This document shows positions 2,633 to 37,247 of a DNA stretch of 38,498 nucleotides, in pieces. Within the stretch, counting starts at the first letter, position 1. Every line of letters begins with the position of its first letter. The position numbers and the translations under genes were made by a program. The notes under the pieces are model-generated. The model was given only the letters and a program-made list of their open reading frames with translations, searched no databases and was not told the DNA's origin. The DNA is from Alphaproteobacteria bacterium (GTDB lineage Bacteria > Pseudomonadota > Alphaproteobacteria > Sphingomonadales > Sphingomonadaceae). The DNA lies in NCBI GenBank assembly GCA_018823905.1, contig JAHJHL010000178.1, positions 1 to 38,498 on the forward strand, given 5' to 3'.

Positions 2633-4264
<1,632 letters not shown>

Positions 4265-4430
4265 TGTCCCGCTAATTCGTAATTGCCGCTCGGAGCGCAA
4301 GGCAGGCTGCCATGAGGTCCCAGGCTGCCGCCATGTAGCCGTCAGGTCTTTTGAGCTTCCGCCGAAGCACCCCGTACATTTACGGAAGTTCATTGCAGGC
4401 CAAAGCGGGGTAGTTTCTGCCGGTGCGCTA

Positions 4431-4450
4431 ACACGGTTTTAACACCGTGT
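4431..4450. promoter_or_regulatory. Perfect inverted repeat before the PilZ-HTH gene
   Basis: Arms ACACGGT (4431-4437) and ACCGTGT (4444-4450) are separated by six bases. The repeat ends 16 bases before the ATG at 4467, where a repressor would block transcription or initiation. There is no T run, so it is not a typical terminator for pgm. Autoregulation by the HTH protein is an inference. Confidence 0.5.
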
Positions 4451-4466
4451 GGCTGATAATGGGGCC

Positions 4467-5147
4467 ATGGCTATTTCTGCATATTTCGAATCCTCGCCAA
4501 AGGCATCGACGCGCGCAAAGCGCCGCAAACTCATGCTCGAAGTGCGCGGCACACACGCCTCCGTCGCCGACGTTCCGGTTATGGTGCACAATATCTCGGA
4601 GACGGGACTGCTGATCGAATGCGAGGCATCGCTTTCGATCGACGACCGGATCGATATCGACCTGCCTCACGCGGGGATCGTCTCGGCAACTTTGGTCTGG
4701 GTCAGCGGTCAAATGTTCGGCTGCCAGTTCGACACGAAGCTCTCGCCCGCTGCGCTGAGCGCAGCGCAATTGCAGAGCGCCATCGACGTCGAGACCGCCT
4801 CTGCCACGAACGCCGCCGAAAATGATCCGATTCCCGTCGGAGGCCACGCCTCGAACTTCGCAGCGAATCTGAAGCGACTGCGCATGGCCAAAGGCTTGAG
4901 CCAGGCCAGCATGGCCGAACATCTCGGCGTGAGCGGTCCTTCGATTTCGGGCTGGGAAAAGGGCCGCGCCCGTCCGAAGGAGGATCGATTGGCTGATCTT
5001 GCCAATTTGCTCGGGGTGCCGGTTTCGCAGCTACTCGTCGATCCGCAGCCTGACATGATCCACGACCTGATCGATTCGAGTCGCGAGCAAATTGCGCGCG
5101 CCACCGGCGTGGCTCCCGAGAGAGTTCGGATTATTGTCGAGTTTTAA
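4467..5147 (+). CDS. PilZ domain fused to XRE-type HTH regulator
   Basis: Protein of 226 residues with two domains. Residues about 16-90 form a PilZ domain with both parts of the cyclic-di-GMP signature: RxxxR at 16-20 and NxSxxG (NISETG) at 42-47. Residues about 131-190 form an XRE/HTH_3 domain (LKRLRMAKGLSQASMAEHLG, then SISGWEKGRARP). The design suggests a transcription factor that responds to cyclic di-GMP; this is inference, but the binding residues are visible. ATG at 4467 is preferred over GTG at 4449, which lies inside the inverted repeat. Neighbouring wall, sugar-phosphate and PEP-CTERM genes make surface-matrix control plausible. Confidence 0.88.
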   Translation: MAISAYFESSPKASTRAKRRKLMLEVRGTHASVADVPVMVHNISETGLLIECEASLSIDDRIDIDLPHAGIVSATLVWVSGQMFGCQFDTKLSPAALSAAQLQSAIDVETASATNAAENDPIPVGGHASNFAANLKRLRMAKGLSQASMAEHLGVSGPSISGWEKGRARPKEDRLADLANLLGVPVSQLLVDPQPDMIHDLIDSSREQIARATGVAPERVRIIVEF

Positions 5148-5646
5148 CCGCGCGGCGATTGCGAGAGAATCTCGGCAGCTTGCTATGCTTCACCTCGGTG
5201 CAGCGCTTCTCAGATTTTCTAAAGAGTAGCCCGACTTTCAGCGGAGGGACGAAAGCCGGGCTGAGCGTCCAATGGTCGCAGCGGCCAAAGGCTCCTTTAT
5301 CTTCAATGCCGAGGCCAAATGAGCGCGGCCTCAATTGAGCGCGCACTGGCGGCGGCAGACGCCGCCAGAGGTCGCGTGTTTTTACGGTTGGCCGCGCAGC
5401 GCGCTTGTCTCGCTTCTTGGCGCCGCGGGCGCGCGGACCTTGCGGCGGGTAAACAGCGCGTGGCGCTGCTCCGGGCGTGGCGGGGCCACTCCCGACCCGC
5501 CACCGGTCCGCGCACGCCGCGGTGCCTGCGCCTGCGACAAGGGCGCGTTTGTTTTCCGATGTTGACGCCGCGCCGATAGCGCGGCGGCGCTGTGCTTGGG
5601 CCGGCCACGGACAGCGTGGCAGTCGGCGCACGGCTATGGGACCGCT
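5148..5646. other. Palindrome-rich segment entering the mobile module
   Basis: No credible protein is encoded. The segment has several hairpins. One is at 5228-5262: AGCCCG pairs with CGGGCT and CTTTC with GAAAG around one mismatch. CTGGCGGCG/CGCCGCCAG is at 5346-5368. A 7-bp pair (GCCGCGC with GCGCGGC) lies around 5567-5585. GC content rises sharply from about 5300, which probably marks passage from chromosome to mobile DNA, but I could not define an end or direct repeat. Confidence 0.45.
5346..5368. repeat. 9-bp perfect hairpin
   Basis: CTGGCGGCG at 5346-5354 pairs with CGCCGCCAG at 5360-5368 around a five-base loop. A short T run follows about ten bases later (5379-5383), so it could act as a weak plus-strand terminator at the entry to the module. 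Confidence 0.5.
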
Positions 5647-5709
5647 CGGCCGGTGCGCAAGCCGGGTCTTCGCCCCGGCTCCTCCACTGCGTTGCGGCCC
5701 TGCGGGTGC
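5647..5709 (+). promoter_or_regulatory. Shared leader element, copy 1 (before the ParB-like gene)
   Basis: A hairpin (GCCGGG 5661-5666 with CCCGGC 5674-5679) directly abuts TCCTCC at 5680. TCCTCC is followed by CTGCGTTGCGGCCCTGCGGG. Related sequence stands before the DUF736 and ArdC genes, again just after a hairpin. This copy begins its TCCTCC 120 bases before the ATG. The flank CGGCCGGT..GCAA also matches copy 3. Function is unknown; it is a candidate promoter or leader RNA. Confidence 0.55.
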
Positions 5710-5799
5710 GTCCCGTCCTTTGGCGTGGTCCCGTCGCCTTTCCTCGCCGCCCGCCCCGCCGTCCGGGGCCGGGTGTGGTTGAAGGAAAGGAAGAAGATC

Positions 5800-7590
5800 A
5801 TGAAGCTCGATTTTATCCCAATGGACAAATTGTCGATTGCAGCGACCAATATGCGCGGGAAGGGCAAAGATCCCGATGTGTCGGACCTGCTCCCCAGCAT
5901 TCGGGCACGGGGGGTGATTGTTCCTCTGCTCGTGCGTCCGAATTGTGCCCAAGGGCATTTCGAGATCGTCGCGGGCCGTCGGCGCTTTACCGCCGTCAAT
6001 GCCGTGGCGCGCGAGGGCGGGGCGGTGAAACCCATCCCCTGTGCGATCCTCGACGAGGGCGATGATGCCGATGCGCTCGAAGCGTCGATGCTGGAAAACC
6101 TTGCCCGAGTGCAGCCCGACGAGGTCCGTCAGTGGGAAGCGTTCGTGGCGCTGGTGAAATCGGGGCGCAGCGTGGAAGAGGTGGCCGACACGTTCGGGTT
6201 CGAGCCATCGGCAGTGAAGCGCATCCTCGCGCTCGGCAATCTTTTGCCGCGCGTTCGCACCCTCTATCGCGGCGGCCAGATCGACGTGAACACGGTGCGC
6301 CATCTGACCCTCGCCTCGAAAAGCCAGCAGAAGGCGTGGCTGGCGCTGTTCGACGATGAAGCGGCCTATTGCCCGACCGGCCACCAGCTTAAAGCGTGGC
6401 TGTTTAGCGGCACGGCCATCGCGGTGACCCATGCGCTGTTCGATGTCGGCGAAGTCAAGTTGGCTATCGTGTCCGACCTGTTCGGCGAGGACAGCTTCTT
6501 TGCTGACAGCGATGCATTCTGGTCGGCGCAGATGGACGCCATTGAGGCGCGCAAGTCGGCGTATCTCGAAGCGGGATGGTCCGATGTCGTCGTCATGCCG
6601 CGCGGTGACTGGTTCCGCTCGTGGGATCATGTTCACGCGGGCAAGCGCAAGGGCGGTCGCATCTATGTCGAGGTCCGCGATAGCGGCGAAGTCAGCTTCC
6701 ACGAAGGCTATGTGACCACCAAGGAAGCAAAGCGGCTTTCGGGCGGTGGCGGCAGTGAGGGGGGCGCTGCCCCCGCGAAGCCTAGCCGTCCAGAAGTGTC
6801 GGGTCCGCTCAATGCCTATATCGACTTGCACCGCCATGCAGCAGTGCGCGCCGATCTGGTGGGCCATGCCGGGGTCGCACTTCGCGCCATGCTCGCGCAT
6901 GTCATCGCGGGTTCAGCCCTGTGGCGGGTCGATATCGAGGCGCAGCGCGCGCCGAAGGAAGATATCGCCGAGAGCGTCGAGACTTGCCCTGCCGAAACGG
7001 CCTTCGACGAGAAGCGCCGCGCGGTGCTTGCCGTGCTCGGCTTCGACGACGATGCGCCGACCGTTACGCGTGAGGGTCTTCACCGACCCCCTTTTGCGCC
7101 GCTGCTCGCGCGGCTGCTCGAATTGCCCGATTCGGTAGTCATGGAGATCATCGCGATCGTCATGGGCGAGACCTTGCAAGCGGGCAGCGCGGCGGTAGAA
7201 ATGATCGGCGTTCACCTCGGCACCGACATGCGCCAGCACTGGCAAGCCGACGCGGCGTTCTTCGACCAGCTGCGCGACCGCGAAGTGCTGCTCGCCATTA
7301 CCGGCGAGGTCGCTGGCGCGGAGGTCGCGGCGGCGAACGCCGGTGAAAAGGCGAAGGCGCTGAAATCGATCATCGCCGATTGCCTTGCGGGCGCGAACGG
7401 AAGGGCCAAAGCCGAGCCGTGGGTTCCCCGGTGGATGACCTTCCCGCCGACCGCCTACACGGCCCGCGGCGGGGTCGGCAGCGTGACGGCGGCGGCGCGA
7501 GTGCGCCATGCGCTGGCCGCAGAGGCGGCTGCCGATCCTACGGGAAATCATGATACCGCCGATAGCGAAGAGCAGCGGCTGGCGGCGTAA
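5800..7590 (+). CDS. ParB-like DNA-binding protein of a mobile element
   Basis: Protein of 596 residues. The N-terminal ParB/Srx domain (about 1-105) has EIVAGRRRFTAV, equivalent to the ParB box with the CTP-binding arginine patch, and ENLARVQPDEVRQWEAF. A KorB-like HTH follows (SVEEVADTFGFEPSAVKRILAL, about 125-150). The long C-terminus has a Gly/Ala-rich linker near 310-325 and no domain I can name. No ParA ATPase is adjacent, so a classical partition role is not supported. Such stand-alone ParB-like proteins are common next to antirestriction genes on conjugative DNA. The start at 5800 follows AAGGAAAGGAAG; upstream in-frame starts would run through the structured leader. A terminator follows the stop. 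Confidence 0.88.
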   Translation: MKLDFIPMDKLSIAATNMRGKGKDPDVSDLLPSIRARGVIVPLLVRPNCAQGHFEIVAGRRRFTAVNAVAREGGAVKPIPCAILDEGDDADALEASMLENLARVQPDEVRQWEAFVALVKSGRSVEEVADTFGFEPSAVKRILALGNLLPRVRTLYRGGQIDVNTVRHLTLASKSQQKAWLALFDDEAAYCPTGHQLKAWLFSGTAIAVTHALFDVGEVKLAIVSDLFGEDSFFADSDAFWSAQMDAIEARKSAYLEAGWSDVVVMPRGDWFRSWDHVHAGKRKGGRIYVEVRDSGEVSFHEGYVTTKEAKRLSGGGGSEGGAAPAKPSRPEVSGPLNAYIDLHRHAAVRADLVGHAGVALRAMLAHVIAGSALWRVDIEAQRAPKEDIAESVETCPAETAFDEKRRAVLAVLGFDDDAPTVTREGLHRPPFAPLLARLLELPDSVVMEIIAIVMGETLQAGSAAVEMIGVHLGTDMRQHWQADAAFFDQLRDREVLLAITGEVAGAEVAAANAGEKAKALKSIIADCLAGANGRAKAEPWVPRWMTFPPTAYTARGGVGSVTAAARVRHALAAEAAADPTGNHDTADSEEQRLAA

Positions 7591-7598
7591 CCAATCGG

Positions 7599-7628
7599 GC
7601 GGGCGGCTATGGTCGCCCGCTCATTTTT
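7599..7628 (+). terminator. Terminator after the ParB-like gene
   Basis: GCGGGCG at 7599-7605 pairs with CGCCCGC at 7614-7620 around an eight-base loop. TCATTTTT follows. It starts nine bases after the stop codon. Confidence 0.7.
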
Positions 7629-7645
7629 CGCCCGCGGGATGATGA

Positions 7646-7670
7646 CGCGCCGACCTTGCAGGTCGGCGCG
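7646..7670. repeat. 10-bp perfect hairpin
   Basis: CGCGCCGACC (7646-7655) pairs perfectly with GGTCGGCGCG (7661-7670) around TTGCA. It is the first of three consecutive strong hairpins after the ParB-like gene and has no T run. Confidence 0.65.
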
Positions 7671-7680
7671 GCGTTGTCGA

Positions 7681-7729
7681 TTTTGGCGCGCCGCTGCCGC
7701 AAGCGGCACCGGCGCGCGAAGAGCCAAAA
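7681..7729. repeat. Nested inverted repeat
   Basis: GCGCGCCG (7686-7693) pairs with CGGCGCGC (7710-7717). Inside them TGCCGC pairs with GCGGCA. An overlapping outer pair, TTTTGGC (7681-7687) with GCCAAAA (7723-7729), offers an alternative fold. It has no protein-coding character. Confidence 0.6.
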
Positions 7730-7734
7730 GAAGA

Positions 7735-7765
7735 GGGCGGCACGAAGACCAGCTTCGTGCCGCCC
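7735..7765. repeat. 13-bp perfect hairpin
   Basis: GGGCGGCACGAAG (7735-7747) pairs perfectly with CTTCGTGCCGCCC (7753-7765) around a five-base loop. No T run follows on the plus strand, so it is not a standard terminator. Confidence 0.65.
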
Positions 7766-8172
7766 TACAACGATGAACGCTTTCGCACATCATCGCCCCT
7801 GCCGCCGGTCGGTCACCGGGGTCGCTACCATCACCGTCCGGCAGAAGAACTTGTTGCCCATCCCATTCGCAAGGCTGGGTTAAAGTTATTGTACAAATCC
7901 GCCAAATCGACGCGCAGTGACGTAATATTCCTCCAATTTTCTGCCGTCTGCGTTTCAGATTCGACACTCGCCTCTCAGCCTTCTGGGAATCTCGGTAGAG
8001 AAGGCCGACGCGGCAGAGGCGGATGATCGCCGATGAGCGGGACCGAATTGCGTCCGCTGTCGGTGAACCCTTTCCGCGCCGTTCGTCTCCGCAGCCCGCC
8101 GTCTCCACATCGGCACGTCAGACCATCCCCGGCGACGGGCGATTGACCTGGTCCGGCGCGGCGCTCCGCGAA
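7766..8172. other. Intergenic stretch between hairpin arrays
   Basis: The open frames here lack any recognisable family and have shadow-like composition. The part near 7875-7945 is AT-richer than its surroundings (GGTTAAAGTTATTGTACAAA) and could hold a promoter, but I cannot assign -35 and -10 boxes with confidence. Confidence 0.3.
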
Positions 8173-8254
8173 AGTGCGGCGGCGCGATTATTTCCCCGCC
8201 GGCTGCGCCGGCTCCTCGCGGTCGTTTCGCTCCAAATAATCGCGCCGCCGCACT
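8173..8254. repeat. Long perfect inverted repeat before DUF736
   Basis: Arms 8173-8193 and 8234-8254 are perfectly complementary over 21 bp, separated by 40 bases that contain a smaller palindrome (GCCGG/CCGGC). As single-stranded DNA or RNA this gives a very stable stem. The right arm runs straight into the TCCTCC leader element. It is non-coding and lacks insertion-sequence features. Confidence 0.75.
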
Positions 8255-8283
8255 CCTCCGCTGCGCTGCGGCCCTGACGGGTT
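8254..8283 (+). promoter_or_regulatory. Shared leader element, copy 2 (before DUF736)
   Basis: TCCTCC then GCTGCGCTGCGGCCCTG follows the long inverted repeat and matches copy 1 closely. It begins 109 bases before the ATG at 8363. Its position after a hairpin and its distance from the start match the other two copies. Confidence 0.55.
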
Positions 8284-8362
8284 CGCGGAGCACCTCATGC
8301 GCCGGTTTCTGGTCCGCCCATGTCGCAGGGATGGTCCCGCGGCAGTTTTAAGGAGACGACCA

Positions 8363-8686
8363 ATGGCAGCTATCGGCTTTGTGAACGGCACCATCGAAAA
8401 AGGCTTCGTGGGCCAGCTCAAAACCCTCTCGATCCGCGCGGCGATCGAGATCCGCCCCAACCCCTCGAAGAACGGCGACGTCCAGCCCGACTACCGGGTT
8501 TATTCCGAAGGCGTCGAGATCGGGGCCGGCTGGGTCCGCATCGGCGAAACATCGGGCAAGCCCTTCGTGTCGCTGACCCTCGCTGCCCCCGAGTTCGGGC
8601 CGCGGCGCATTTACGCCAACCTCGGTCGCGCCGCCGGTCAGGACAGCGAAGACGCCTATGCGATCATCTGGAACCCCGAGCATTGA
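8363..8686 (+). CDS. DUF736 family protein
   Basis: Protein of 107 residues. It begins MAAIGFVNGTIEKGFVGQL and contains PDYRVY and GAGWVR, typical of DUF736 proteins found on alphaproteobacterial plasmids and integrative elements. Biochemical function is unknown. The start at 8363 is set by AGGAG at 8351-8355; upstream in-frame starts lie in the leader. It is flanked by the long inverted repeat and leader upstream and by a terminator downstream. It stands with a ParB-like gene and ArdC, as is usual for this family. Confidence 0.93.
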   Translation: MAAIGFVNGTIEKGFVGQLKTLSIRAAIEIRPNPSKNGDVQPDYRVYSEGVEIGAGWVRIGETSGKPFVSLTLAAPEFGPRRIYANLGRAAGQDSEDAYAIIWNPEH

Positions 8687-8698
8687 AGTCGGGCTCCA

Positions 8699-8727
8699 CC
8701 CCGCGCCGCCTTGGCGGCGCGGGGCTT
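8699..8727. terminator. Terminator between DUF736 and the AlpA-like gene
   Basis: CCCCGCGCCGCC (8699-8710) and GGCGGCGCGGGG (8713-8724) make a very stable stem with a tiny loop, followed by CTTTG. It lies between the convergent DUF736 and AlpA-like genes and may serve both, though the T tract is weak. Confidence 0.6.
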
Positions 8728-8743
8728 TGCCGTGCCTAGCCGT

Positions 8744-8965
8744 TCAGGCGGCTTCGCGCTTGAGGTCGGCGATGGTGAACGCGTGCGGGTTACGCAGCCA
8801 CATTTCGACCTCGCCGGCGCGCCAGCCGCAGCAGCGCTCGGCGAGTTTGTGCTGGGTTGGGAAGGTCCCGGCGGCGATCTTGCGATAGAGGGTGGCTCGG
8901 CTGAGGCCGGTCAGGTCGAGCACCTCATTGAGACGCATGAGGCGGAGGGGAGATTGGAATGCCAT
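8744..8965 (-). CDS. AlpA-family HTH regulator / excisionase-like protein
   Basis: Protein of 73 residues with an AlpA/MerR-like winged helix: RLNEVLDLTGLSRATLYRKI, then AGTFPTQHKLAERCCGWRAGEVEMWLR. This family acts as excision or regulatory factors of prophages and integrative elements, often switching integrase genes. No integrase is adjacent; the nearest recombinases are 25 kb away. It is the only minus-strand gene between the ParB-like and MNT-HEPN genes. A start ten residues later (MRLNEV) is possible. GGAG lies about ten bases upstream of the chosen ATG. Confidence 0.85.
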   Translation of the reverse strand: MAFQSPLRLMRLNEVLDLTGLSRATLYRKIAAGTFPTQHKLAERCCGWRAGEVEMWLRNPHAFTIADLKREAA

Positions 8966-9362
8966 GCTGTTCTACTCCATCTGTTGAACGAATTTGCGTC
9001 GACACGAGATAAAGAGAACATGAGAGGCGCCGTCGTCAACACCTTAGAAAACCGACATTTTCGGCGTAGTCTTCTGGCGTAGGGCCACCGGTATCCATCG
9101 GCGTCCATGGAGGTCTGCGGGCGGCCTTGGCGTATCCGCATTCATTTTTCTCACAGCGTCCCACCGATGTCGCGGCGGAGAGCGAATGAGGCCGTCGATG
9201 ACGGCCGCGCCCGCCAATGACGCGCCGTAACCGGCGCGGCGTCTGCCCGATTCGCTATGGGGAAGGGCGCCGCTGGCGCGCATTCGGTCGCCGCTTCGCG
9301 GCGGCGTTGGTCTGTCCCGGCACGGCGGGGGCAGGGTGGGCGTCACTCGCCTTAGCCCCGCC
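8966..9362. other. Intergenic region between AlpA-like gene and ArdC leader
   Basis: No credible gene. It has many short hairpins: GCCGTC/GACGGC near 9195-9215, CGCGCCG/CGGCGCG near 9220-9240 and CGCCGC/GCGGCG near 9289-9305. The left part should hold the promoter of the AlpA-like gene on the minus strand. The right part is GC-rich and resembles the region ahead of the ParB-like gene. Confidence 0.35.
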
Positions 9363-9421
9363 CGGCCGGTCCGCAACCCGCGTGCCGCGGGTCCTCCTCT
9401 TCGTTTCGGTCCTTCGGATGC
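9363..9421 (+). promoter_or_regulatory. Shared leader element, copy 3 (before ArdC)
   Basis: CGGCCGGT..GCAA is followed by a hairpin (ACCCGCG 9376-9382 with CGCGGGT 9386-9392) and then TCCTCC at 9392-9397 with TCTTCGTTTCGGTCCTTCGG. This aligns with copies 1 and 2 with a few substitutions. It begins 122 bases before the ATG. After it, the CCGCCCACCCCGCC stretch and the CCGGGTG..GG..GGAAGGA sequence also match the ParB-like leader. Confidence 0.55.
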
Positions 9422-9513
9422 AGCCCGCCCGATGATGCGGGTCTGCCGGCTCCTTCCTGCCGCCCACCCCGCCCCCTTCCGGGCCGGGTGCGGTGGCTGG
9501 AAGGAGAAAGAAT

Positions 9514-10407
9514 ATGCGTGCCGAAAGGATCGAACGGGCGAGCCACTATTCGGAGGTCACGAACCGGATCATCGCGGAGCTTGAAGAAGGACGTCTGCCA
9601 TGGGTGCAGCCGTGGGACAGCGCGGCGTGCGGATGCACGATGCCGCAGAATGCAGGCACGGGCCGCAAATATAGCGGGATCAATGTGCTGATCCTGTGGG
9701 CCGAGGTCGTCGCTAAGGGTTACGCCTCGCAGCGCTGGCTGACCTACCGGCAGGCCGAGACGGCGGGCGGTAACGTCCGGCGCGGCGAGAAGGGCACGGT
9801 AATTTGCTATGCCGACCGCTTTACACCTAAGGCCGAAGCTGAGGCCGCGCGCGGCGAGGACCGCGAAGCGCGGCAGGTGGCTTTCCTGAAACGCTTTGTC
9901 GTCTTCAACATCGTCCAGTGCGAGGGATTACCCGAAGATTATATCGCCCCGATGGTCAGCCCCGATCCGGTACTTGCGATTGCCGAGGCTGATGCGCTGA
10001 TCGCCGCGACCGGCGCGCGGATCAAGATCGGCGGCGGCGAGGCCTTTTACAGCCCGGGCCATGATTTCGTGCAGGTGCCGCCGCAGGCGGCGTTTCATGA
10101 ACCGATCAATTGGTATCGCACCGCGCTCCACGAGCTTGGTCACTGGACCGGTCACGCGAGTCGGTTGGACCGCGACCAAAAGGGCGGGTTCGGATCGGGA
10201 GCTTATGCCAAGGAGGAACTTGTCGCCGAAATGGCGGCGGCATTTACCTGCGCGTCGCTTGGCATCGCGCCGACCGTGCGCCATTCGGATTATATCGCGT
10301 CGTGGCTGTCGGTACTGCGCGATGATGACAAGGCGATCTTTCGCGCTGCCAGTCAGGCGAGCAAGGCGAGCGATTTCCTGCTCGCCTTTGCTGGAGGCGA
10401 CCAATGA
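9514..10407 (+). CDS. ardC: ArdC-like antirestriction protein
   Basis: Protein of 297 residues. The N-terminal ArdC ssDNA-binding domain (about 8-135) has VTNRIIAELEEGRLPWVQPW and GRKYSGINVLIL. The C-terminal zincin domain has HELGHWTGH at 206-214 and a downstream EELVAEMAAAF that can supply the third metal ligand. ArdC proteins enter recipients during conjugation and protect incoming DNA from restriction. The ATG at 9514 follows GGAAGGAGAAAG; the GTG seven codons upstream would put the start before the ribosome site. Its last bases overlap the next gene (ATGA), so the two are translationally coupled. Confidence 0.92.
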   Translation: MRAERIERASHYSEVTNRIIAELEEGRLPWVQPWDSAACGCTMPQNAGTGRKYSGINVLILWAEVVAKGYASQRWLTYRQAETAGGNVRRGEKGTVICYADRFTPKAEAEAARGEDREARQVAFLKRFVVFNIVQCEGLPEDYIAPMVSPDPVLAIAEADALIAATGARIKIGGGEAFYSPGHDFVQVPPQAAFHEPINWYRTALHELGHWTGHASRLDRDQKGGFGSGAYAKEELVAEMAAAFTCASLGIAPTVRHSDYIASWLSVLRDDDKAIFRAASQASKASDFLLAFAGGDQ

Positions 10408-10652
10408 CCGCCCGCAAGTTACGCGAAGAGCGGCTGCGCCTTTGGCGCGCCGAGCGCGTCGTGGACCAGATGCACGGCATGGACCGCAAAGTGTTTCTCG
10501 CAATCCGCGTTGATGAGATGACCTATCCGCAGATTGCCGAGCGGTTCGACATCAGCGTCGGCGATGTCGAAGCGCATTTCGCGGCGAGCCTGCGCATCAT
10601 GATGCAAGCCATGGACGAGAAAGATCCATGGTGGTGGAAATTCTGGCCGTGA
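10404..10652 (+). CDS. Small sigma-70 region 4-like HTH protein
   Basis: Protein of 82 residues. DRKVFLAIRVDEMTYPQIAE followed by RFDISVGDVEAHFAASL resembles the helix-turn-helix of sigma factor region 4. No region 2 is present, so it cannot be a complete sigma factor. It ends in the unusual WWWKFWP. It overlaps the ArdC stop by four bases and is probably co-transcribed with it. It may modulate promoter choice of the element, but that is inference. Confidence 0.7.
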   Translation: MTARKLREERLRLWRAERVVDQMHGMDRKVFLAIRVDEMTYPQIAERFDISVGDVEAHFAASLRIMMQAMDEKDPWWWKFWP

Positions 10653-10660
10653 TCGCGGAC

Positions 10661-10694
10661 CATCGACCGGATGACGCTTGCCATCCGGTCGATG
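10661..10694. repeat. 13-bp perfect hairpin before MNT-HEPN
   Basis: CATCGACCGGATG (10661-10673) pairs perfectly with CATCCGGTCGATG (10682-10694) around eight bases. It sits nine bases after the sigma-like gene and 19 before the next ATG. There is no T run, so attenuation, mRNA processing or a single-strand structure is more likely than termination. Confidence 0.65.
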
Positions 10695-10713
10695 CAATTA
10701 CAGGGTGAAGACA

Positions 10714-11643
10714 ATGCGCACCGACCTCGATCATCTTCCCGCCAACAAGCAGCGCGAGCTTGAGCGCGTGAAGCAGATTATCTTCGAAGAATTTGCCGAC
10801 AGCGTCGCACTGGCGACGATGAACTGGAAGAAGAAGGGCCGGATCGACAAGATCATCCTTTACGGCAGCTATGCGCGCGGCGGCTGGGTCGATGAGCCGC
10901 ACACCGCCAAGGGCTATCGATCCGACTTCGATCTGCTGATCATTGTCAGCGACAAGCGCCTCACCGACAAGGTCGATTACTGGCTCAAGGTCGAGGATCG
11001 CCTCAACCGCGAGCTTGCGATCGACAAGACACTACACACGCCGGTCAATTTCATCGTCCACACCATGCAGGAAGTGAACGACGGCCTCGCACACGGGCGC
11101 TATTTCTTCATGGATGTCGCGAAAGACGGCATCGCCCTCTACGAGTTTGACGACAAGGAATTGCACAAGCCGAAGCCCAAGACACCGCAGCAGGCGCTCG
11201 CCATGGCGCAGGAGTATTTTGAAGAGTGGATTCCCCTCGCTGCAAGTGCGCAGAAAGGGTTTCATTTCTTCATATCGCAAAACGAACTTCGGGACGCAGC
11301 GTTCATTCTACATCAGGCCACTGAACGCCTTTACCACTGCGTGTTATTGGTTTGCACCTTCTACACCCCGCACGTCCACAATCTCGGATTTCTGCGCACG
11401 CAAGCAGAGCGTATCGACATGCGGCTCGTGGATGCCTGGCCGCGCGAACTGAAAGCGGATCGCAAGCACTTCGAGAAGCTCAAGGAAGCTTATGTGAAGG
11501 CGCGCTATTCAAAACATTATCGGATCAGTGAAGAGGAATTGCGCTGGCTTGGCGAGCGCGTCGAAGAACTCGGCCGCGCCGTGCACGCAATCTGTTCGGA
11601 GCGGATCGCCCAGCTGGAATCTGCTGCGCAGCCTAGCCGCTGA
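10714..11643 (+). CDS. Single-chain MNT nucleotidyltransferase-HEPN protein
   Basis: Protein of 309 residues. The N-terminal minimal nucleotidyltransferase domain has GSYARGG at 51-57 and SDFDLLI at 70-76, the two strands of the active site. The C-terminal HEPN domain (about 165-300) ends with ARYSKHY at 263-269, as in HEPN domains fused to nucleotidyltransferases; the canonical RX4HXY of HepT toxins is not exact here. Separate MNT and HEPN proteins form toxin-antitoxin pairs in which MNT adenylylates HEPN. In one chain, either a self-controlled toxin or a nucleotidyl-transfer enzyme is possible. The start follows AGGGTGAAG; the ATG 12 codons upstream lies inside a hairpin. Confidence 0.85.
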   Translation: MRTDLDHLPANKQRELERVKQIIFEEFADSVALATMNWKKKGRIDKIILYGSYARGGWVDEPHTAKGYRSDFDLLIIVSDKRLTDKVDYWLKVEDRLNRELAIDKTLHTPVNFIVHTMQEVNDGLAHGRYFFMDVAKDGIALYEFDDKELHKPKPKTPQQALAMAQEYFEEWIPLAASAQKGFHFFISQNELRDAAFILHQATERLYHCVLLVCTFYTPHVHNLGFLRTQAERIDMRLVDAWPRELKADRKHFEKLKEAYVKARYSKHYRISEEELRWLGERVEELGRAVHAICSERIAQLESAAQPSR

Positions 11644-11646
11644 TCC

Positions 11647-11766
11647 ATGCCCCGGCGCATGACCATCGCCGGTCAAATCGAGGCGCTGATTCAGCGCCTC
11701 GAAGGCGTGGCGATCTGTGACGATTGTGTCACCGACCGCCTCAATTCGACGTCGCATCAGCGCTAA
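11647..11766 (+). CDS. Short protein, probably a truncated family member
   Basis: Thirty-nine residues: starts MPRRMTIAGQIEALIQRLEG, then VAICDDCVTDRLN and ends STSHQR. It starts four bases after the MNT-HEPN stop. From memory, it resembles the N-terminal half of small plasmid-borne alphaproteobacterial proteins with a CDDC motif, a short HTH-like segment and a C-terminal CxxC half; that last half is missing. Its last 26 bases overlap the end of the convergent traD, which may explain the truncation. It may be a remnant. Confidence 0.4.
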   Translation: MPRRMTIAGQIEALIQRLEGVAICDDCVTDRLNSTSHQR

Positions 11767-12028
11767 GGCTGCTGCCAAACGCGCGCCGCCCCCGGCGGCG
11801 CCATAACGTCAGTTGCTGCTCGCGGCCTTCGCCGCGCAGCGTCGCGGCGGCTTCGACCAGCAGGCCGAGAATGACCGCGCGATCATCGCCGGTCAGCTCG
11901 ATCAGATCGGCCTTGGCTATCAGCCCACCCAGCTCGATCAGCTGGCGCGTCCGCTCGCGGCGCTTCACCTGCCACGCCCGCGTGTCATGCCGCGCCCGTT
12001 TCGCCTGAAGGCGATTGCGGGCCTGCAC
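11741..12028 (-). CDS. traD: Conjugal transfer protein TraD (Ti-type, small)
   Basis: The conserved part, WQVKRRERTRQLIELGG then LIAKADLIELTGDDRAVILG, matches the small TraD proteins found with TraC beside MOBQ TraA genes in Ti-like systems. They are accessory to DNA processing at oriT; this is not the VirD4-type coupling protein. The start is unclear. GTG at 12028 (95 residues) covers the whole conserved part but overlaps traC; GTG at 11968 (75 residues) would lose WQ; a much longer frame opens at 12139. It follows traC in the same operon. Confidence 0.7.
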   Translation of the reverse strand: MQARNRLQAKRARHDTRAWQVKRRERTRQLIELGGLIAKADLIELTGDDRAVILGLLVEAAATLRGEGREQQLTLWRRRGRRAFGSSLSADATSN

Positions 12029-12308
12029 CGACCGTCGATGTGCCGCCCGCGTTGCGGCGAGCGCTTTGGCGAGTACCGGTGCTGCTCCCGCGAAAGAACG
12101 CAGCGCCGCTTTTGCGCCACGCCTCCTTTCGCACCGCATCGCCGCCGACTGCTTCGATCAATGCGCCCGCAAGCTGCTCGATTGACAGCGCATCGGCGCC
12201 CGTCGCGGTGACCAGCTCGCCGAGCTGACTTTGCTTCTTCGTCTTGAGCGCCTTTGCCTTGTCGGTGAGCGCCTGGAGTTCGGCGTCAAAATCGCGGGGT
12301 TTACGCAT
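11985..12308 (-). CDS. traC: Conjugal transfer protein TraC (Ti-type)
   Basis: Protein of 107 residues, charged and helical: MRKPRDFDAELQALTDKAKA, then KKQSQLGELVTATGADALSIEQLAGALIEA. This matches TraC of MOBQ conjugation modules, an oriT accessory or relaxosome protein. The ATG at 12308 has GGAAGG eight bases upstream on the minus strand. It is divergent from traA, with oriT in between, the same arrangement as on Ti plasmids. It overlaps traD downstream. Confidence 0.85.
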   Translation of the reverse strand: MRKPRDFDAELQALTDKAKALKTKKQSQLGELVTATGADALSIEQLAGALIEAVGGDAVRKEAWRKSGAAFFRGSSTGTRQSARRNAGGTSTVGAGPQSPSGETGAA

Positions 12309-12420
12309 CGTCTGTCCTTCCGTTTGATGGGGTAGGACGAACCAGCTATGCCGAGTCTCATCGCCGTTCAAGCAGCTGAAATCTCTTGCGACTTTGTGAT
12401 CCCGAGCGCGATGAAATCGT

Positions 12421-12451
12421 GTGAGGGCGCGCTTATACGTCGTGCCGACGT
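12421..12451 (-). other. oriT: Origin of transfer (nic region) of MOBQ type
   Basis: Read on the minus strand, an inverted repeat ACGTCG-GCA-CGACGT (12451-12437) is followed directly by ATAAGCGCGCCCTCAC. This matches the RSF1010 layout, where an inverted repeat is followed by TAA-nn-GCG and CCCTC, and the Ti oriT core, which on the other strand reads GGGCGC..TTATACGTCG. By analogy the nick would fall between complement positions 12428 and 12427. It lies in the traC-traA intergenic region, as expected. The exact nick is inferred. Confidence 0.78.
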
Positions 12452-12480
12452 GCTCGTTTTGCTGTAAATGGTACGCCCTC

Positions 12481-15399
12481 ATGGCGATCTACCATTTCTC
12501 CGCAAAAGTGATTTCGCGCGCGGTCGGCAGCAGCGCGGTGGCTGCTGCGGCCTATCGTTCGGCCGACCGCCTGCACGATGAGCGGCTCGGTCGCAGCCAT
12601 GATTTCTCGAACAAGGCGGGTGTCGTCCACAGCGAAGTGCTGCTCCCCGATGGCGCGCCGGATGAATGGCGCGACCGCGAACAGCTCTGGAATGACGTCG
12701 AAGCTGCGGAGATCCGCAAGGACGCCCAGCTCGCCCGCGAGATCGAGTTCGCGATCCCGCGCGAGATGACCCAGGAACAGGGCATCGAGCTGGCCCGTGA
12801 TTTCGTCCGAACTGAGTTTGTCGAGCGTGGCATGGTCGCTGATTTGAACGTGCATTGGGATATCGGTGCCGACGGCCTCGCGCGCCCGCATGCCCATGTC
12901 ATGCTGACAATGCGCGAGATCAGGATTGGCGAAGACGGATCCGCCGAGTTCGGCGCGAAAGTGCGCGACTGGAACCGCACCGAGCTGCTGACCCATTGGC
13001 GCGAAGCCTGGGCCGATCATGTGAACGAGCGCCTCGCGTCGCTGGATATCGAGGCGCGCATCGATCATCGCAGTCTTGCAGCGCAGGGCATCGATCTCGA
13101 ACCGCAGCACAAGATCGGCCCGGCGGCATCGCGAATGGTCGAGCAGGGGCTCGAAGTCGATCGCGCCGAGGAGCATCTCGATATCGCGCGGCGGAACGGC
13201 GAGAAAATCCTCGCCAACCCGTCGATCGCTCTCGACACCATCACCCATAACCAGGCCACCTTCACCAACCGCGACCTCGCGATGTTCGTGCACCGGCATA
13301 GTGCCGACACCATCCAGTTCGATGCAGTGATGGGCGCCGTGAAGGCGTCGCCCGATCTGATCACGCTTCGTAAGGATGGGCGCGGCGAGGATCGGTTCAC
13401 GTCGCGCGCTATGATCGAGACCGAGCAGCGGCTCGAACGCGCGACTGCGACACTCGACGCGCGCCGCAATCATGGCGTTGCCGATCGTCATCGCGAGCTT
13501 GCCTTGGAGCGTGCTAGCGGCCGCGGTCTCGACTTATCGACCGAGCAGCGCGGCGCTCTCGAGCATGTCATATCGGCGCGCGGTGTCAGCAATGTCATCG
13601 GTTACGCTGGAACGGGTAAAAGCGCGATGCTCGGCGTGGCGCGCGAGGCTTGGGAGGCGGCGGGCTATCAGGTGCAGGGCGCCGCGCTGTCGGGGATTGC
13701 CGCCGAGGGCTTGGAACATGGGTCCGGCATCGGCTCGCGGACCTTGGCGAGCCTCGAACATCAATGGGCAAATGACCGCGAACTCCTTTCGGATAAACAC
13801 ATCCTCGTTATCGACGAGGCGGGGATGATCGGGACGCGTCAGCTTGAGCGCGTTGTGACCGAGGCGGAGAAGCAGGGCGCCAAGGTTGTGCTGGTCGGCG
13901 ATCCCGAGCAGTTGCAGGCGATCGAGGCCGGCGCCGCGTTCCGCGCCGCCGCCGAACGCCACGGCGCCGTCGAGATCAGCGCGATCCGCCGCCAGCATGA
14001 GGAATGGCAGCGCGATGCGACGTGCGAGCTCGCCACGGGACGGACCGGGGAGGCAATCGGTCGTTATGCCGATGCTGGGCATGCGCACGCCGCCGATACC
14101 CGCGAGGCTGCGCGCACCGAACTTGTCGATGCGTGGGATCGCGATCGGCAACGTCATCCCGATGCGAGCCGGATCATTCTTACCCACACCAATGACGAAG
14201 TGCGCCAGCTCAATGAGGATGCCCGTGACCGGCTGCGCGCGGGCGGGACTCTTGGCGAGGATGTCGCGATAAAGGTCGAGCGTGGGGATCGCAGCTTCGC
14301 GGACGGCGATCGTGTCATGTTCCTCAGGAACGAGCGCGACATGGGCGTGAAGAACGGCTCGCTCGGCACCGTCCAGAATGTCGATCGAACGCGCATGGCG
14401 GTTATGCTCGATGATGGGCGCAGCGTTGCCTTCGACCTCAAGGATTACGCCCATATCGATCATGGCTATGCCGCGACGATCCACAAGGCCCAGGGCATGA
14501 CGGTGGACCGGGTGCAGGTGCTCGCTACGCCGGGTATGGACCGCCACGGAGCCTATGTTGCGATGACGCGCCACCGTGAGTCCGTCGATCTCCATTATGG
14601 CCGCGATGATTTTCGCGACCAGTCCAAACTGGTTCGCACGCTCAGCCGCGAGCGCGGTAAGGATATGGCGAGCGATTACCGCGTGCGTGCGCTGGAACCG
14701 GCAAAAGCCGCCGAGCCGAAGCGCAGCATGTTCGCGGGCCTGAAGCTCAGACCTACTGTTTCTGCCGCATCCCTCGGCAAAGCGGCTCCCCAGAAGCAGC
14801 AGCCCGAACGCACCCGCAATATCCGCGTCAGTGCGCGCGCGCTGAGTCCGGCGGCCGATCGCAGCGCACTCGACAAGGCGGTCGAGCGCTATGCCCGCGC
14901 GCAACGCGAGATCGACGGCATGCACGCCAAGGGGCTGTCGCCGGTCATCCACCAGCAGAAAAGTCTCAATGCCGCGGCGCGCGACATCGATGCTCTCCGT
15001 AGCGATGGCGCAAAGGATTTTGCCACGGCGCTGCGCAATGATCCGTCGCTCACCGCTGAGGCGGCGAGCGGCCGCACGCAGCGTGCTATGGAAGCGATGC
15101 GCACCGAAACCAAACTGCGCATCGACGCACCGGCCCGGGCTGATCGCTTCGTTGCCGAGTGGCAGGCGAGTGCGAAGCAGCTTAGGGAGCATAAGGCCAA
15201 CTATGATGATGCCGGCGCCAAGCGGGTCGGAGCCCACCTTAACGACATGGCAAAGAGCCTGCACCGCGACCCGCAACTCGAGTCGCTGCTCCGCAACCGT
15301 ACCCACGAGCTAGGCCTGAAATCGCTTGAGAAACATTCGGTGTCTCAGGCGCTCCAGGATTATCTCCGCCCCTCGCGATCCCTCGGAATGGGGCTTTAG
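12481..15399 (+). CDS. traA: TraA relaxase-helicase (MOBQ)
   Basis: Protein of 972 residues that nicks oriT and unwinds the transferred strand. The N-terminal MobA/MobL domain starts MAIYHFSAK, with the likely catalytic Tyr25 in AAYRSA, the same position as in RSF1010 MobA, and metal-binding histidines in NVHWD and RPHAHVML (124-142). The helicase part has Walker A GYAGTGKS (374-381), Walker B VIDEAGM (443-449), GDPEQLQ (473-479), ATIHKAQGMTVDR and YVAMTRHRE. The tail after about 730 is Arg/Ala-rich and helical. The start at 12481 matches the conserved family N-terminus. It faces traC across oriT and is followed ten bases later by a DUF6118 gene. Confidence 0.95.
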   Translation: MAIYHFSAKVISRAVGSSAVAAAAYRSADRLHDERLGRSHDFSNKAGVVHSEVLLPDGAPDEWRDREQLWNDVEAAEIRKDAQLAREIEFAIPREMTQEQGIELARDFVRTEFVERGMVADLNVHWDIGADGLARPHAHVMLTMREIRIGEDGSAEFGAKVRDWNRTELLTHWREAWADHVNERLASLDIEARIDHRSLAAQGIDLEPQHKIGPAASRMVEQGLEVDRAEEHLDIARRNGEKILANPSIALDTITHNQATFTNRDLAMFVHRHSADTIQFDAVMGAVKASPDLITLRKDGRGEDRFTSRAMIETEQRLERATATLDARRNHGVADRHRELALERASGRGLDLSTEQRGALEHVISARGVSNVIGYAGTGKSAMLGVAREAWEAAGYQVQGAALSGIAAEGLEHGSGIGSRTLASLEHQWANDRELLSDKHILVIDEAGMIGTRQLERVVTEAEKQGAKVVLVGDPEQLQAIEAGAAFRAAAERHGAVEISAIRRQHEEWQRDATCELATGRTGEAIGRYADAGHAHAADTREAARTELVDAWDRDRQRHPDASRIILTHTNDEVRQLNEDARDRLRAGGTLGEDVAIKVERGDRSFADGDRVMFLRNERDMGVKNGSLGTVQNVDRTRMAVMLDDGRSVAFDLKDYAHIDHGYAATIHKAQGMTVDRVQVLATPGMDRHGAYVAMTRHRESVDLHYGRDDFRDQSKLVRTLSRERGKDMASDYRVRALEPAKAAEPKRSMFAGLKLRPTVSAASLGKAAPQKQQPERTRNIRVSARALSPAADRSALDKAVERYARAQREIDGMHAKGLSPVIHQQKSLNAAARDIDALRSDGAKDFATALRNDPSLTAEAASGRTQRAMEAMRTETKLRIDAPARADRFVAEWQASAKQLREHKANYDDAGAKRVGAHLNDMAKSLHRDPQLESLLRNRTHELGLKSLEKHSVSQALQDYLRPSRSLGMGL

Positions 15400-15408: not shown

Positions 15409-16137
15409 ATGCAGAACATAGACCCCGAGAATATTGGCCCCGACGAAATCGCCGCCGAAGATATCGCCCTCGACCAGGCCTTTGATCGCATGTCCGGCAA
15501 AATGTTGACGCTTGCCGCTGCTGTCGATCAGTTCGGCTTGCGTCTGAACGATCTGGCCGGGCGGGATTACAGCGACGATCTCGCGAAGATCGATCAGAAC
15601 TGGGAGAAGGCGCGGGATGCCTTCAAGCGGTTGGCCGAACGCCCTGCGCTGGCGCTCACGCCAGAGGTCATGGGCGAGCAGATGAGGCTGGCGGGCGCGC
15701 GCGCCCGCGAGACCGAGCAGCAAGCCTTGCGCGACGCGCGTTCGCGTCTCGATGAGGCAGTGAAATCGATCACGCTCGTCGTCGCTTCGGCACGGACGCA
15801 GGAGCAGCAGAACTTCTGGATCGCGGTCACCGCAGGCGTTGCCGCAATCCTCGCATTCATGGCCGGCTGCACTGTCCCGTCCGCAGTCGATCGGGCCGTG
15901 CCCGCAGACTGGCATTGGCCGGAGAAGCGCGCGTCCAGTCTGCTATCGCAAGATATGTGGGGCGCCGGTGTTCGGTTGATGCAGTCAGCCGATCTCGACC
16001 GCTGGAACGAGCTTGTTCGCGCTTCACGCGTGTACAGCAAGAACGCGAAGGCGATCGCCGCGTGCCAGGCAAAGGCACCGCGCCGCAAGAAGACGATGAG
16101 GTGCACGATCGAAATCCCTGCATCGACAGGAAGCTAG
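15409..16137 (+). CDS. DUF6118 family membrane protein
   Basis: Protein of 242 residues with an acidic N-terminus, a helical middle likely to form coiled coil (about 60-140), and one membrane segment (FWIAVTAGVAAILAFMAGC, about 145-163). After it, WGAGVRLMQSADLDRWNEL and a basic C-terminus follow. This layout matches DUF6118 proteins encoded directly after TraA in sphingomonad mobile elements. Function is unknown. It starts nine bases after the traA stop and is probably co-transcribed. It is the last recognisable gene of the mobile module. Confidence 0.8.
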   Translation: MQNIDPENIGPDEIAAEDIALDQAFDRMSGKMLTLAAAVDQFGLRLNDLAGRDYSDDLAKIDQNWEKARDAFKRLAERPALALTPEVMGEQMRLAGARARETEQQALRDARSRLDEAVKSITLVVASARTQEQQNFWIAVTAGVAAILAFMAGCTVPSAVDRAVPADWHWPEKRASSLLSQDMWGAGVRLMQSADLDRWNELVRASRVYSKNAKAIAACQAKAPRRKKTMRCTIEIPASTGS

Positions 16138-34220: not shown

Positions 34221-35387
34221 TCACAGGTCCAGCGTCGCAAGCGCCTGCGCTGCTGCGCCCCGGTTGAGGTGGCCATAGTGACGTTCGATCATTTCAGTGC
34301 TGGTGCCGCTGATCTGCGCGACGGCTAGTAGGGGCAAACCTTCGTTTATAAGATCGGTGATCGTGCTGTGCCGCAGGGTATAGGCGGTGGTTCCCTTTGG
34401 CAGCTTCGCATCCTCCACTGCTGCCCTCATCGGCCCGCGCCAGCTGTAATTGTCCCAACGCTTTCCGTTGGCCCGCGAGATCAACGGCTGGTGCTGTTCT
34501 TTCCCAGCAGATTGCTTGGCAAAAAGTTCGATTACCGCGGGAGGGATCAGAATCCGGCGACCTTTGCCGGCCTTGTCCCTGCCGATCGTCAATTCTCCGG
34601 TCCGCTCCTCAAAGTCTTCGACAACCAATTGGGCAGCCGCACCCGGACGCAGCGGAAGCAAGCAAAGTGTCCGAAAAAACGGCTCCGCCTCTTCGTCCAT
34701 GACAGCCAACAACGCTTTACGCTGATCCTTGTCCAAATAGAGGGTCCGCTGCCTGCTCGCATTTCGCACCGATTTCAGGGCTTCTTGCCACGCGGCTTCG
34801 GAGCCCGGCGCGCCAGGCGCCAGAACTTGATTCAGCGCCGCCCGCATCATCGCGATATCACGATTGACGGACGCGGGCGCGCGCGGCCGCGTGACTAGCG
34901 GCTTCTTCTTGCTTCGACTGACGAGCGACGGGATTTCCTCCAGTCGGGTTCGCCAGGCAACGAGGTGATGACGGCGCAGCCGGTGAAGCTTTATCTGTCC
35001 GATGGGATCGCCATACACATAGCGCCGAAAGCGGCCTTCGGCTTCCGGATTGGTCAAAGCATACCGACGACAGGCGTCCTCCACCGTGGTGGGCCGGTTC
35101 TCGAGATATCCGCCGGTGTCGACGAGCTGAGCAAAACGCTCCGCTTCCTGTTTGGCAAATACAAATCTCTCTCGCGCTGGCTCGTCTACGAACTCGCCGA
35201 GCGCCAGATAGCGATAGCGCCTGGCGTCTTCGTCATAGGCTCGGCTAATCCATGTGCCGGCGCCTTCGCGACGCGATGGCCGATAACCGAGATAGCACCC
35301 CGGACGCAGGCGCTGCCAATGGGGTTCGCGCTTCACCGGCAATGATTCGCGTTCGCGCACTCTGCTCAAATCCAGAGCCACAATCAC
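34221..35387 (-). CDS. Tyrosine recombinase / phage-type integrase
   Basis: Protein of 388 residues. The N-terminal part (about 1-110) carries arm- or core-binding segments, and the catalytic domain follows from about 200. Catalytic Arg is in LLPLRPGAAAQLV, the second Arg in YTLRHSTITDL, and the nucleophile is Tyr in MIERHYGHL. The HxxR histidine is replaced by Tyr (YTLR), as I recall for some relatives. It starts with GTG. No cargo, excisionase or attachment site is recognisable next to it. It may be a leftover of an older insertion. Confidence 0.88.
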   Translation of the reverse strand: MIVALDLSRVRERESLPVKREPHWQRLRPGCYLGYRPSRREGAGTWISRAYDEDARRYRYLALGEFVDEPARERFVFAKQEAERFAQLVDTGGYLENRPTTVEDACRRYALTNPEAEGRFRRYVYGDPIGQIKLHRLRRHHLVAWRTRLEEIPSLVSRSKKKPLVTRPRAPASVNRDIAMMRAALNQVLAPGAPGSEAAWQEALKSVRNASRQRTLYLDKDQRKALLAVMDEEAEPFFRTLCLLPLRPGAAAQLVVEDFEERTGELTIGRDKAGKGRRILIPPAVIELFAKQSAGKEQHQPLISRANGKRWDNYSWRGPMRAAVEDAKLPKGTTAYTLRHSTITDLINEGLPLLAVAQISGTSTEMIERHYGHLNRGAAAQALATLDL

Positions 35388-35860
35388 CGTCCTCCGCCTG
35401 TTGCACCCAACATCTTGTACCGAATAAGGGCATCGCGATCAGGCGTGTCAACTACGTTGAACTATTTATGGTCTCGCAACGCTTCATCAAGTCGCTCTTA
35501 TCTTTACTTTGTCAGATGAGTAGCCAGTCCTGTGTTGAAGTTGATCATGACGCCCTCTGATCTCGGTATGGGATGGGGCGTCGATAACTAGATAGACCAT
35601 TTGCGATCGCTTATTCCTCGGACCAATTGTTCGGCGCGCGCTCAAGTCTGTCCGCTCGGTCGGATCAATGAGAAATATTGTTCGGCGATGACGTGTTGAT
35701 GAGCCCGATCTACCGGGCGACTTAGATAACGGTTCCACAAAAAGTGCGGCTCGGCGACGATCGGCGGATGCAATGGACTTTCGACATTATGACCGTCGCT
35801 AGCAGGTGGGGTGCGGATGGAGCCGGCGAACTTGCTCACATCGAGAACCGAGGTTTCCAG
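35388..35860. other. Intergenic region between two recombinases
   Basis: There is no recognised gene. A 65-codon minus-strand frame at 35642-35839 starts MSKFAGSIRTPPAS and includes EPHFLWNRYLSRPVDRAHQH. It begins 22 bases after the stop of the second recombinase and could be real, but has no known family. GCGGATGGAGCCG occurs at 35813-35825, also found twice near 16.6 kb. Confidence 0.35.
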
Positions 35861-37084: not shown

Positions 37085-37092
37085 GATGGTAT

Positions 37093-37107
37093 CTCCCGAA
37101 TCGGGAG
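37093..37107. promoter_or_regulatory. Palindrome over the integrase ribosome site
   Basis: CTCCCGA and TCGGGAG are perfect arms around one base. The minus-strand CGGGAG, the ribosome site eight bases before the integrase ATG, is part of the palindrome. It may bind a repressor or mask translation. Confidence 0.4.
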
Positions 37108-37247
37108 CGGCGCCATGCCATCAGATCTACCATCGAATTGTTGGTATGAAGTGATATCCAGCCGCTCCAATTGAGACAGCTATATCATAAAAAAGCGCAG
37201 AAAACAGCCAGTTTTGAGCCGTTTTGGAACCCTCTGAGAGAGAGAAT

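Follow-up and report, generated by a model that had tools for sequence, protein, structure and literature searches.

Cloverleaf-like elements before the leading-region genes of proteobacterial conjugative elements: candidate single-strand promoters

The 38,498-nt stretch of alphaproteobacterial (Sphingomonadaceae) DNA analysed here (hereafter the window; contig JAHJHL010000178.1 of assembly GCA_018823905.1, read on its forward strand) carries, before the genes for a ParB-like protein, a DUF736 protein and the antirestriction protein ArdC, three leaders that belong to a family of cloverleaf-like elements. That the element is a conserved structure is close to certain, there is good support for placing it, as a single-strand element, in the leading region, and the strand that folds is probably the transferred (-) strand. 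A role as a promoter that works on the entering single strand, without sequence relation to the Frpo promoters of plasmid F, is put at about 0.55, on the grounds of position and of the precedents set by Frpo and by N4. Both the size and the spread of the element exceed what the preliminary description of the window, made from its sequence alone, could reveal, and a literature search that had most subscription papers outside it found no earlier description.

A shared box within a larger covarying structure

The core of the element is a box of 22 bases, TCCTCCNCTKCGYTKCGGYCCT, with exactly three copies in the window, all on the + strand and starting at 5680, 8254 and 9392, as the preliminary description had claimed. 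Its further particulars hold as well: the boxes begin 120, 109 and 122 bases before the ATGs at 5800, 8363 and 9514, Pfam assigns the downstream genes to ParB_N, DUF736 and ArdC, and each box is abutted by a hairpin in the sequence and in DNA folds (GCCGGG..CCCGGC at 5661-5679; a 21-bp stem at 8173-8193/8234-8254; CCCGCG TGC CGCGGG at 9377-9391). Allowing up to three mismatches adds no fourth copy in the window, and 100 dinucleotide shuffles of it gave no match at all. A slightly relaxed box pattern is approached to within two mismatches at ten places in the window's assembly (reversed control, 0), and three of these, on contig C15, precede the same three gene types. Across the class, an exact match to an 18-base pattern was found in 15 of 385 genomes, with none for the reversed control among the rows listed, and four of the nine + strand matches inspected from this search (L014, L016, L018 and L023) look by their surroundings like chance or coding sequence.

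Around the box, the two strands of a closing helix (P0) enclose, in order, a first arm, TCCTCC, a mini-hairpin of two pairs, TKCGG and a third hairpin (P3). Arm 1 is a hairpin, which in the DUF736 form is long and has an inner hairpin (P1 and P2). Compensatory changes back every helix (P0, P1 and its extension P1b, P2, the mini-hairpin and P3). In an alignment of 26 leaders covering P1, P2, the mini-hairpin and P3 (A2), 83.2% of cells pair and 127 cells are changed on both sides, versus 54.1 in shuffles, a count reached by none of 500 shuffles and by no slid structure (at most 42). A column-pair scan of 62 leaders found P0 (upstream GCCGCA, downstream TGCGGC) and P1b, which reaches the first T of TCCTCC. 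P0 covaries in 54 leaders, its second pair being C-G in 43 and A-T in 9, and the whole structure with P0 has 242 two-sided cells in these leaders versus 81.7 when shuffled (0 of 500; slid structures at most 67), the rows in all cases being hand-picked from motif or model matches and the shuffles ignoring kinship. The G-U route is nearly absent, with 25 one-sided cells set against those 242. At position 3 of P1 there are 78 TA and 65 CG pairs and no G.T or A.C, for which 34 and 37 were expected, and the mini-hairpin also covaries (R-Y pair, GC 110 and AT 54; inner pair, CG 163 and TA 5). Lack of stem conservation in homologues had been named beforehand as what would refute the proposal; the stems covary strongly. 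In 17 ArdC leaders and in the ParB-like leader of the window, arm 1 is for the most part a plain hairpin; P0, the box and P3 are readable in the same order.

Searches with Rfam at the elements of the window (4000-13500), of the Agrobacterium plasmid pTi1D1487 (L034) and of a Citrobacter plasmid (L258) gave no family match at or near the gathering score; the best score in the window stretch, 33.6 bits of the 50 needed, fell at 7644-7718, away from the boxes. A leader peptide was considered for the box and rejected. In one frame the box reads PPLR(C/F)GP, with changes mostly at third positions; that frame has no ATG, GTG or TTG from the previous stop to 8297, downstream of the DUF736 box, its register relative to the gene is unequal among the three leaders, and the box has the covarying mini-hairpin. 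No tandem repeats were found at 5000-10000.

Two smaller observations concern the architecture. TCCTC occurs twice in each DUF736-type element, each time outside the helices or at their edge (in TTCCTCGCG and in TCCTCC), and the corresponding GAGGA on the transferred strand could serve as a recognition motif. In two genomes from outside the class (L252 and L253), a long inverted repeat (GCGTCCTTG..CAAGGACGC in L252) encloses, by eye, the whole cloverleaf and is a possible outermost helix.

Distribution and place in the leading region

Two covariance models, R1 and R2, were used to follow the element beyond the window. R1 gave 75 matches at E <=1 in 61 sources, including the leaders from which it was built. 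In the window's order, 296 genomes were sampled with R1, and 76 of them, the window's own among them, had a match at E <=0.01; in 80 stretches retrieved around listed matches, R1 gave 104 at E <=0.05. For the phylum, 398 genomes were sampled with R2 at E <=0.001; 51 had a match, and six of the 51 come from outside the class. Model matches on plasmids include pTi1D1487 (120.3, 117.3 and 40.8 bits), Bradyrhizobium pBel61 (94.7 bits), Polaromonas pPNAP01 (79.5 bits), a Sphingomonas paeninsulae plasmid (71.1 and 35.0 bits), a Citrobacter plasmid (65.1 bits), Methylobacterium pMRAD01 (53.9 bits), Sinorhizobium pSymA (46.0 bits, E 1.6e-7) and Blastomonas pBSY18_4 (25.1 bits, E 0.0045).

A script assigned downstream open reading frames to 178 of the 179 matches; these encode DUF736 proteins (102), a second family (28), ArdC (17) and ParB-like proteins (8). 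The second family is of SLOG type (PF10686, in the single member tested), presumably DUF2493; the remainder are groups of 7 and 3, which look like DUF736 read in the wrong frame, a pair, and singletons, a DUF2958 among them. Where the box is present at up to three mismatches, its median distance to the start is 108 bases for DUF736 (61 of 102), 110 for the SLOG-type family (15 of 28), 122 for ArdC (10 of 17) and 118 for the ParB-like genes (8 of 8), which puts the preferred place ~105-130 bases ahead of the ATGs of leading-region genes; the 10th percentiles of 73 (DUF736) and 67 (SLOG-type) probably reflect in part wrong start choices by the script. Starting from DUF736 genes irrespective of their leaders (from the class, 289 genomes, of which 34 gave a match; also plasmids and the window's assembly, the last two fetched in part because of the motif), 71 upstream regions were obtained, one place, in L116, being counted twice. 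The box is present at up to three mismatches in 27 of them, in 25 cases 106-121 nt before the start, and the stem [arm]CCCC[hairpin]TCCTCGC..[arm] in 35 of the 71.

The elements precede genes that point towards the relaxase. With three relaxases as tblastn queries, a relaxase was found in the same stretch as 123 elements, and for 121 of these it lies downstream on the same strand. The stretches L148-L227 span 14 kb on the downstream side against 6 kb upstream, and this biases the count toward 'downstream' and not toward 'same strand'; in the other 24 loci, which were not cut lopsidedly, 42 of 44 element-relaxase pairs have the relaxase downstream and on the same strand, and the two exceptions in orientation come from R1, with E values of 0.81 and 0.97. 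The core of the origin of transfer (oriT), AGGGCGCGCTTATACGTCG, was seen in five of nine MOBQ loci, in a single polarity throughout and never reversed, and where the core was recognised the elements lie on the oriT side. The leading-region placement proposed in the preliminary description is supported. With the position and direction of the nick at AGGGCGCGCTTATACGTCG taken to be those of the RSF1010/pTi oriT, this polarity would make the - strand the transferred one, with its 5' end on the side of the three elements. Near rlxS, the MOBP nic motif was found forward in 2 and reversed in 6 of 74 loci, which was taken as chance.

In ICEMlSymR7A, an integrative and conjugative element (ICE), the rdfS-traF operon is upstream of oriT and rlxS (PMC11963761), and DUF736 genes, often duplicated, are reported for every ICE and plasmid of this conjugation type in Mesorhizobium (PMC8627217).

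The folding strand and the function of the element

An RNA fold of the + strand would tolerate G.T cells, and a fold of the - strand would tolerate cells that read A.C on the + strand, because A.C on + is G.T on -. The comparison was made on 124 elements, thinned from 179 to <80% identity, against column permutations, which ignore kinship and were used because the C-rich right arms confound a plain wobble count. Over the outer five pairs of P1 (positions 8-12), A.C cells number 74 (permuted mean, 80.7), G.T cells 13 (43.1) and other mismatches 83 (262.8), and the A.C minus G.T difference was reached in none of 2000 permutations. A.C is thus tolerated on the + strand, which points to the - strand as the one that folds. 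Among the triloops of perfect 3-bp stems on the + strand of the same elements, 104 of 246 are TNC and 4 are GNA, versus 367 and 318 of 5303 in 2480 random windows from the same loci; the loops therefore read GNA on the - strand. The mini-hairpin, R-C-TNC-G-Y on +, has its TNC loop in 93 of 112 boxes (<=3 mismatches, among the 179 elements), with any of the four bases in the middle. A further 26 R2 matches, some from genomes already used, have 24 A.C and 9 G.T cells over all helices and 25 TNC and 2 GNA loops. Folding energies with DNA parameters favour the - strand in 100 of 102 elements, mostly through composition. The two strand-asymmetric signatures, in the outer P1 wobbles and in the triloops, suggest that the folding strand is the - strand, as DNA.

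A single-strand promoter would be expected to show this combination: a fold on the first strand to enter, ahead of genes for which that strand is the template. In the proposed sequence of events, the leaders would form cloverleaf-like DNA elements on the transferred strand during its single-stranded entry into the recipient, and the folded strand would, judging by position and precedent, recruit RNA polymerase. The - strand could then be read at once as the template for the ParB-like, DUF736, SLOG-type and ArdC genes, ahead of second-strand synthesis, and conversion to duplex would remove the fold and end expression.

The closest precedents are the Frpo or single-strand initiation (ssi) sequences of F and ColIb-P9, which, like the elements here, stand before leading-region genes that point to oriT, occur in more than one copy and fold on the entering strand. 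Plasmid F (L262) has 90%-identical repeats at 10082-10622 and 15470-16012, before ssb and before a hypothetical gene, which from their position are taken to be Frpo2 and Frpo1. Each forms a long GC-rich hairpin that encloses an AT-rich inner stem, a design shared by P1, and the leading region of F has similar genes (antirestriction, SSB, ParB-like, PsiB, DUF932), all on one strand. In F, deletion of Frpo1 or Frpo2 abolishes early expression of the genes behind it, and it is from F that single-strand promoters are known experimentally, homologous sequences being reported in ColIb-P9 (PMC9849209). The elements here share with this group the leading-region position with the transferred strand as template (121 of 123 pairs, and the MOBQ oriT polarity with the nick direction of RSF1010/pTi) and a conserved fold on that strand (covariation, with the strand assigned indirectly, from wobble and loop asymmetry). 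They differ in that Frpo is one long imperfect hairpin, whereas here there is a cloverleaf with a TCCTCC box and a GNA mini-hairpin, and in showing no conserved -35/-10. The mini-hairpin has its own parallel in the promoters of the N4 virion RNA polymerase, which are template-strand hairpins with a 3-base loop favoured by SSB (PMC4496689): it too is a small template-strand hairpin with a 3-base loop (GNA). N4 differs in using its own T7-like polymerase, and the mini-hairpin here has only two pairs and lies within a larger fold.

Several results weigh against the promoter reading or against the strand assigned to it. A TTGACA/TATAAT pair, of the kind that Frpo reconstitutes in its stem, was sought at 5150-9560 and found 0 times (shuffle mean, 0.5), by a scan with the E. 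coli sigma-70 consensus on contiguous duplex, which an alphaproteobacterial or folded variant could escape. P1 is free in sequence, unlike a -35/-10 pair, except for TT/AA beside CCCC. In F (48000-68000), R1 had no match and the best match of R2 reached 11.2 bits (E 0.28). The RlxS-type elements, most of the set, have no recognised nic motif, so that the polarity rests on the MOBQ loci. The ArdC and ParB elements of the window match the models weakly (E 0.0057 to 2.8e-5), and about half of the DUF736 genes examined are without the element, the upstream stretch of many looking coding. As for the strand, the inner seven P1 pairs admit neither wobble (A.C 2, G.T 1) and are uninformative; P2, which aligns poorly, has 19 G.T (expected 18.8) and no A.C (expected 3.0) at position 2; P3 leans to G.T, 9 versus 3 over four positions; P1b is mixed, A.C outnumbering G.T in the inner positions and the reverse holding in the outer ones; and the energy gain of the - strand beyond shuffles is small (-0.8 kcal/mol, p 4e-4). 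Of the proposal in the preliminary description, that the leaders are single-strand promoters in a MOBQ element, the single-strand leading-region element is well backed by covariation, placement and strand asymmetry, while the promoter is an inference from position and precedent, the expected promoter sequence and a significant match in F having been sought and not found.

The alternative that survives best, though unlikely, is a structured mRNA leader, a cloverleaf of + strand RNA by which established cells would control the gene that follows, at translation or at termination. It is in keeping with the favoured distance to the ATG, with the separate Shine-Dalgarno hairpins in the ParB and ArdC leaders of the window and with the lean to G.T in P2 position 2 and P3, and the best hairpin within the last 85 nt before the ATG (60 leaders; G.T 9, A.C 4) hints faintly at an RNA role for this downstream part of the stretch. 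Elements of this family do resemble the cis-regulatory leaders of Rfam in their position and their nested covarying helices; their upstream helices, however, have few G-U pairs, they lack an Rfam match at the loci searched, and the asymmetry of the outer P1, which tolerates A.C and not G.T, and of the loops, TNC on + and GNA on -, is opposite to what an mRNA would lead one to expect.

Somewhat less probable still is a single-strand initiation site, at which the fold of the entering strand would prime second-strand synthesis and gene expression would be a side effect or absent. Strand and place are as expected for ssi sites, and the element may be a second-strand priming site or have a mixed role; priming, however, need not be tied to gene starts, and each element here stands before a gene of its own, in most cases ~105-130 nt from the start, with stretches of a few kb holding several copies. 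Inverted repeats that act as duplex, with a dimeric regulator or a recombinase as ligand, or mobile repeats that spread from one leading-region gene to another, are improbable: the inner P1 is strictly Watson-Crick, as in a duplex palindrome, but there are several separate covarying nested helices of free sequence, one of them closing over ~100 nt or more, and loops and wobbles are strand-asymmetric. An antisense RNA, or - strand DNA exposed in an R-loop, that takes the same fold in established cells is the weakest candidate and very improbable, since, although pairing evidence alone cannot separate - strand RNA from - strand DNA, GNA triloops favour DNA on what is generally known of them (the GNA-loop hairpin d(GCGAAGC) is stable as DNA) and the elements searched have no Rfam match.

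The promoter reading in its widest form is more tentative, falling a little short of even odds: ssDNA cloverleaf promoters unrelated to Frpo would be widespread in conjugative and mobilisable elements of the alpha-, beta- and gammaproteobacteria and would transcribe antirestriction and establishment genes through N4-like GNA mini-hairpins on the template strand. Early expression from entering DNA would then be a general feature of conjugative elements across the Pseudomonadota, Ti and symbiosis plasmids included, the elements would mark leading regions and the polarity of transfer where oriT is unknown, and they would point to antirestriction genes and to unknown ones (DUF736, the SLOG-type family) as establishment factors. 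A 2024 survey of leading regions sought single-strand promoters by BLAST against five known Frpo/ssi sequences and, in selected islands, with a -35/-10/UP consensus, and its main text, supplements aside, does not contain the word 'alphaproteobacteria' (PMC11541004); covariance models let such elements be found without close sequence similarity.

Features of the window and their surroundings

Table 1. Elements, genes and oriT of the window's leading region (strand of the elements is the one thought to fold).
Feature	Position	Strand	Basis and remarks
Element of ParB-like gene	5653..5714	- (putative)	R1 5656-5718, 25.6 bits, E 0.0057; R2 5656-5710, 34.5 bits, E 6.3e-5; DNA fold
Parts of ParB-gene element			P0 GTGCGCA / TGCGTCC (~4 good pairs); arm 1 5661-5679; box 5680-5697 with mini-hairpin A-C-TGC-G-T; P3 CCC-TGC-GGG 5698-5706
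ParB-like gene	5800..7590	+	ParB_N, E 1.4e-11
Element of DUF736 gene	8155..8300	- (putative)	R2 91.6 bits, E 3.8e-16 (this leader is among those from which R2 was built); pair counts; DNA fold
Outer parts of DUF736-gene element			P0 8164-8172/8282-8290; P1 8173-8193/8234-8254; CCCC 8194-8197; P2 8198-8203/8207-8212; TCCTCGCG 8213-8220
Box parts of DUF736-gene element			box 8254-8271 with mini-hairpin G-C-TGC-G-C; P3 8272-8274/8279-8281
DUF736 gene	8363..8686	+	PF05284, E 3.1e-24
Element of ArdC gene	9358..9437	- (putative)	R1 9369-9430, 25.9 bits, E 0.0051; R2 36.3 bits, E 2.8e-5
Parts of ArdC-gene element			P0 around GCA 9373-9375 / TGC 9419-9421; arm 1 9377-9391; box 9392-9409; P3 TCC-TTC-GGA 9410-9418
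ArdC antirestriction gene (ArdcN + zincin-like metallopeptidase)	9514..10407	+	Pfam, E 2.3e-41 and 3.5e-53
TraD-like relaxosome gene flanking oriT	11985..12314	-	PF06412, E 1.5e-11
oriT core AGGGCGCGCTTATACGTCG and short inverted repeat	12420..12455 (core 12424-12442)		same core and polarity in pTi1D1487, Blastomonas pBSY18_4, L211 and L223
MobA/MobL (MOBQ, TraA-type) relaxase-helicase	12481..15399	+	PF03389, E 3e-72

Between the elements and the start codons there are hairpins that would mask the Shine-Dalgarno sequences, at 5737-5790 for the ParB-like gene (CCTTTCC with GGAAAGG; by eye not kept in L012) and at 9450-9506 for ArdC (CTCCTTCC with GGAAGGAG). GC-rich, terminator-like hairpins follow the ParB-like gene at 7597-7766, the scan total of 5 being hardly above the 4.2 in shuffles. 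On the - strand at ~8743-8966, between DUF736 and ArdC and opposite to the leading-region genes, lies a small helix-turn-helix-like frame, called AlpA-like only from the annotated AlpA-family gene that precedes ArdC in Blastomonas.

Right behind ArdC (10404-10652), the window encodes a small sigma-70 region 4 protein, also present on Blastomonas pBSY18_4, that could bear on early transcription, and the leading region further encodes a nucleotidyltransferase-HEPN protein (10714-11643). Far downstream, at 34221-37323, two frames that by reading resemble tyrosine integrases stand beside a tRNA-Glu (37248-37323), a possible end of an integrated element.

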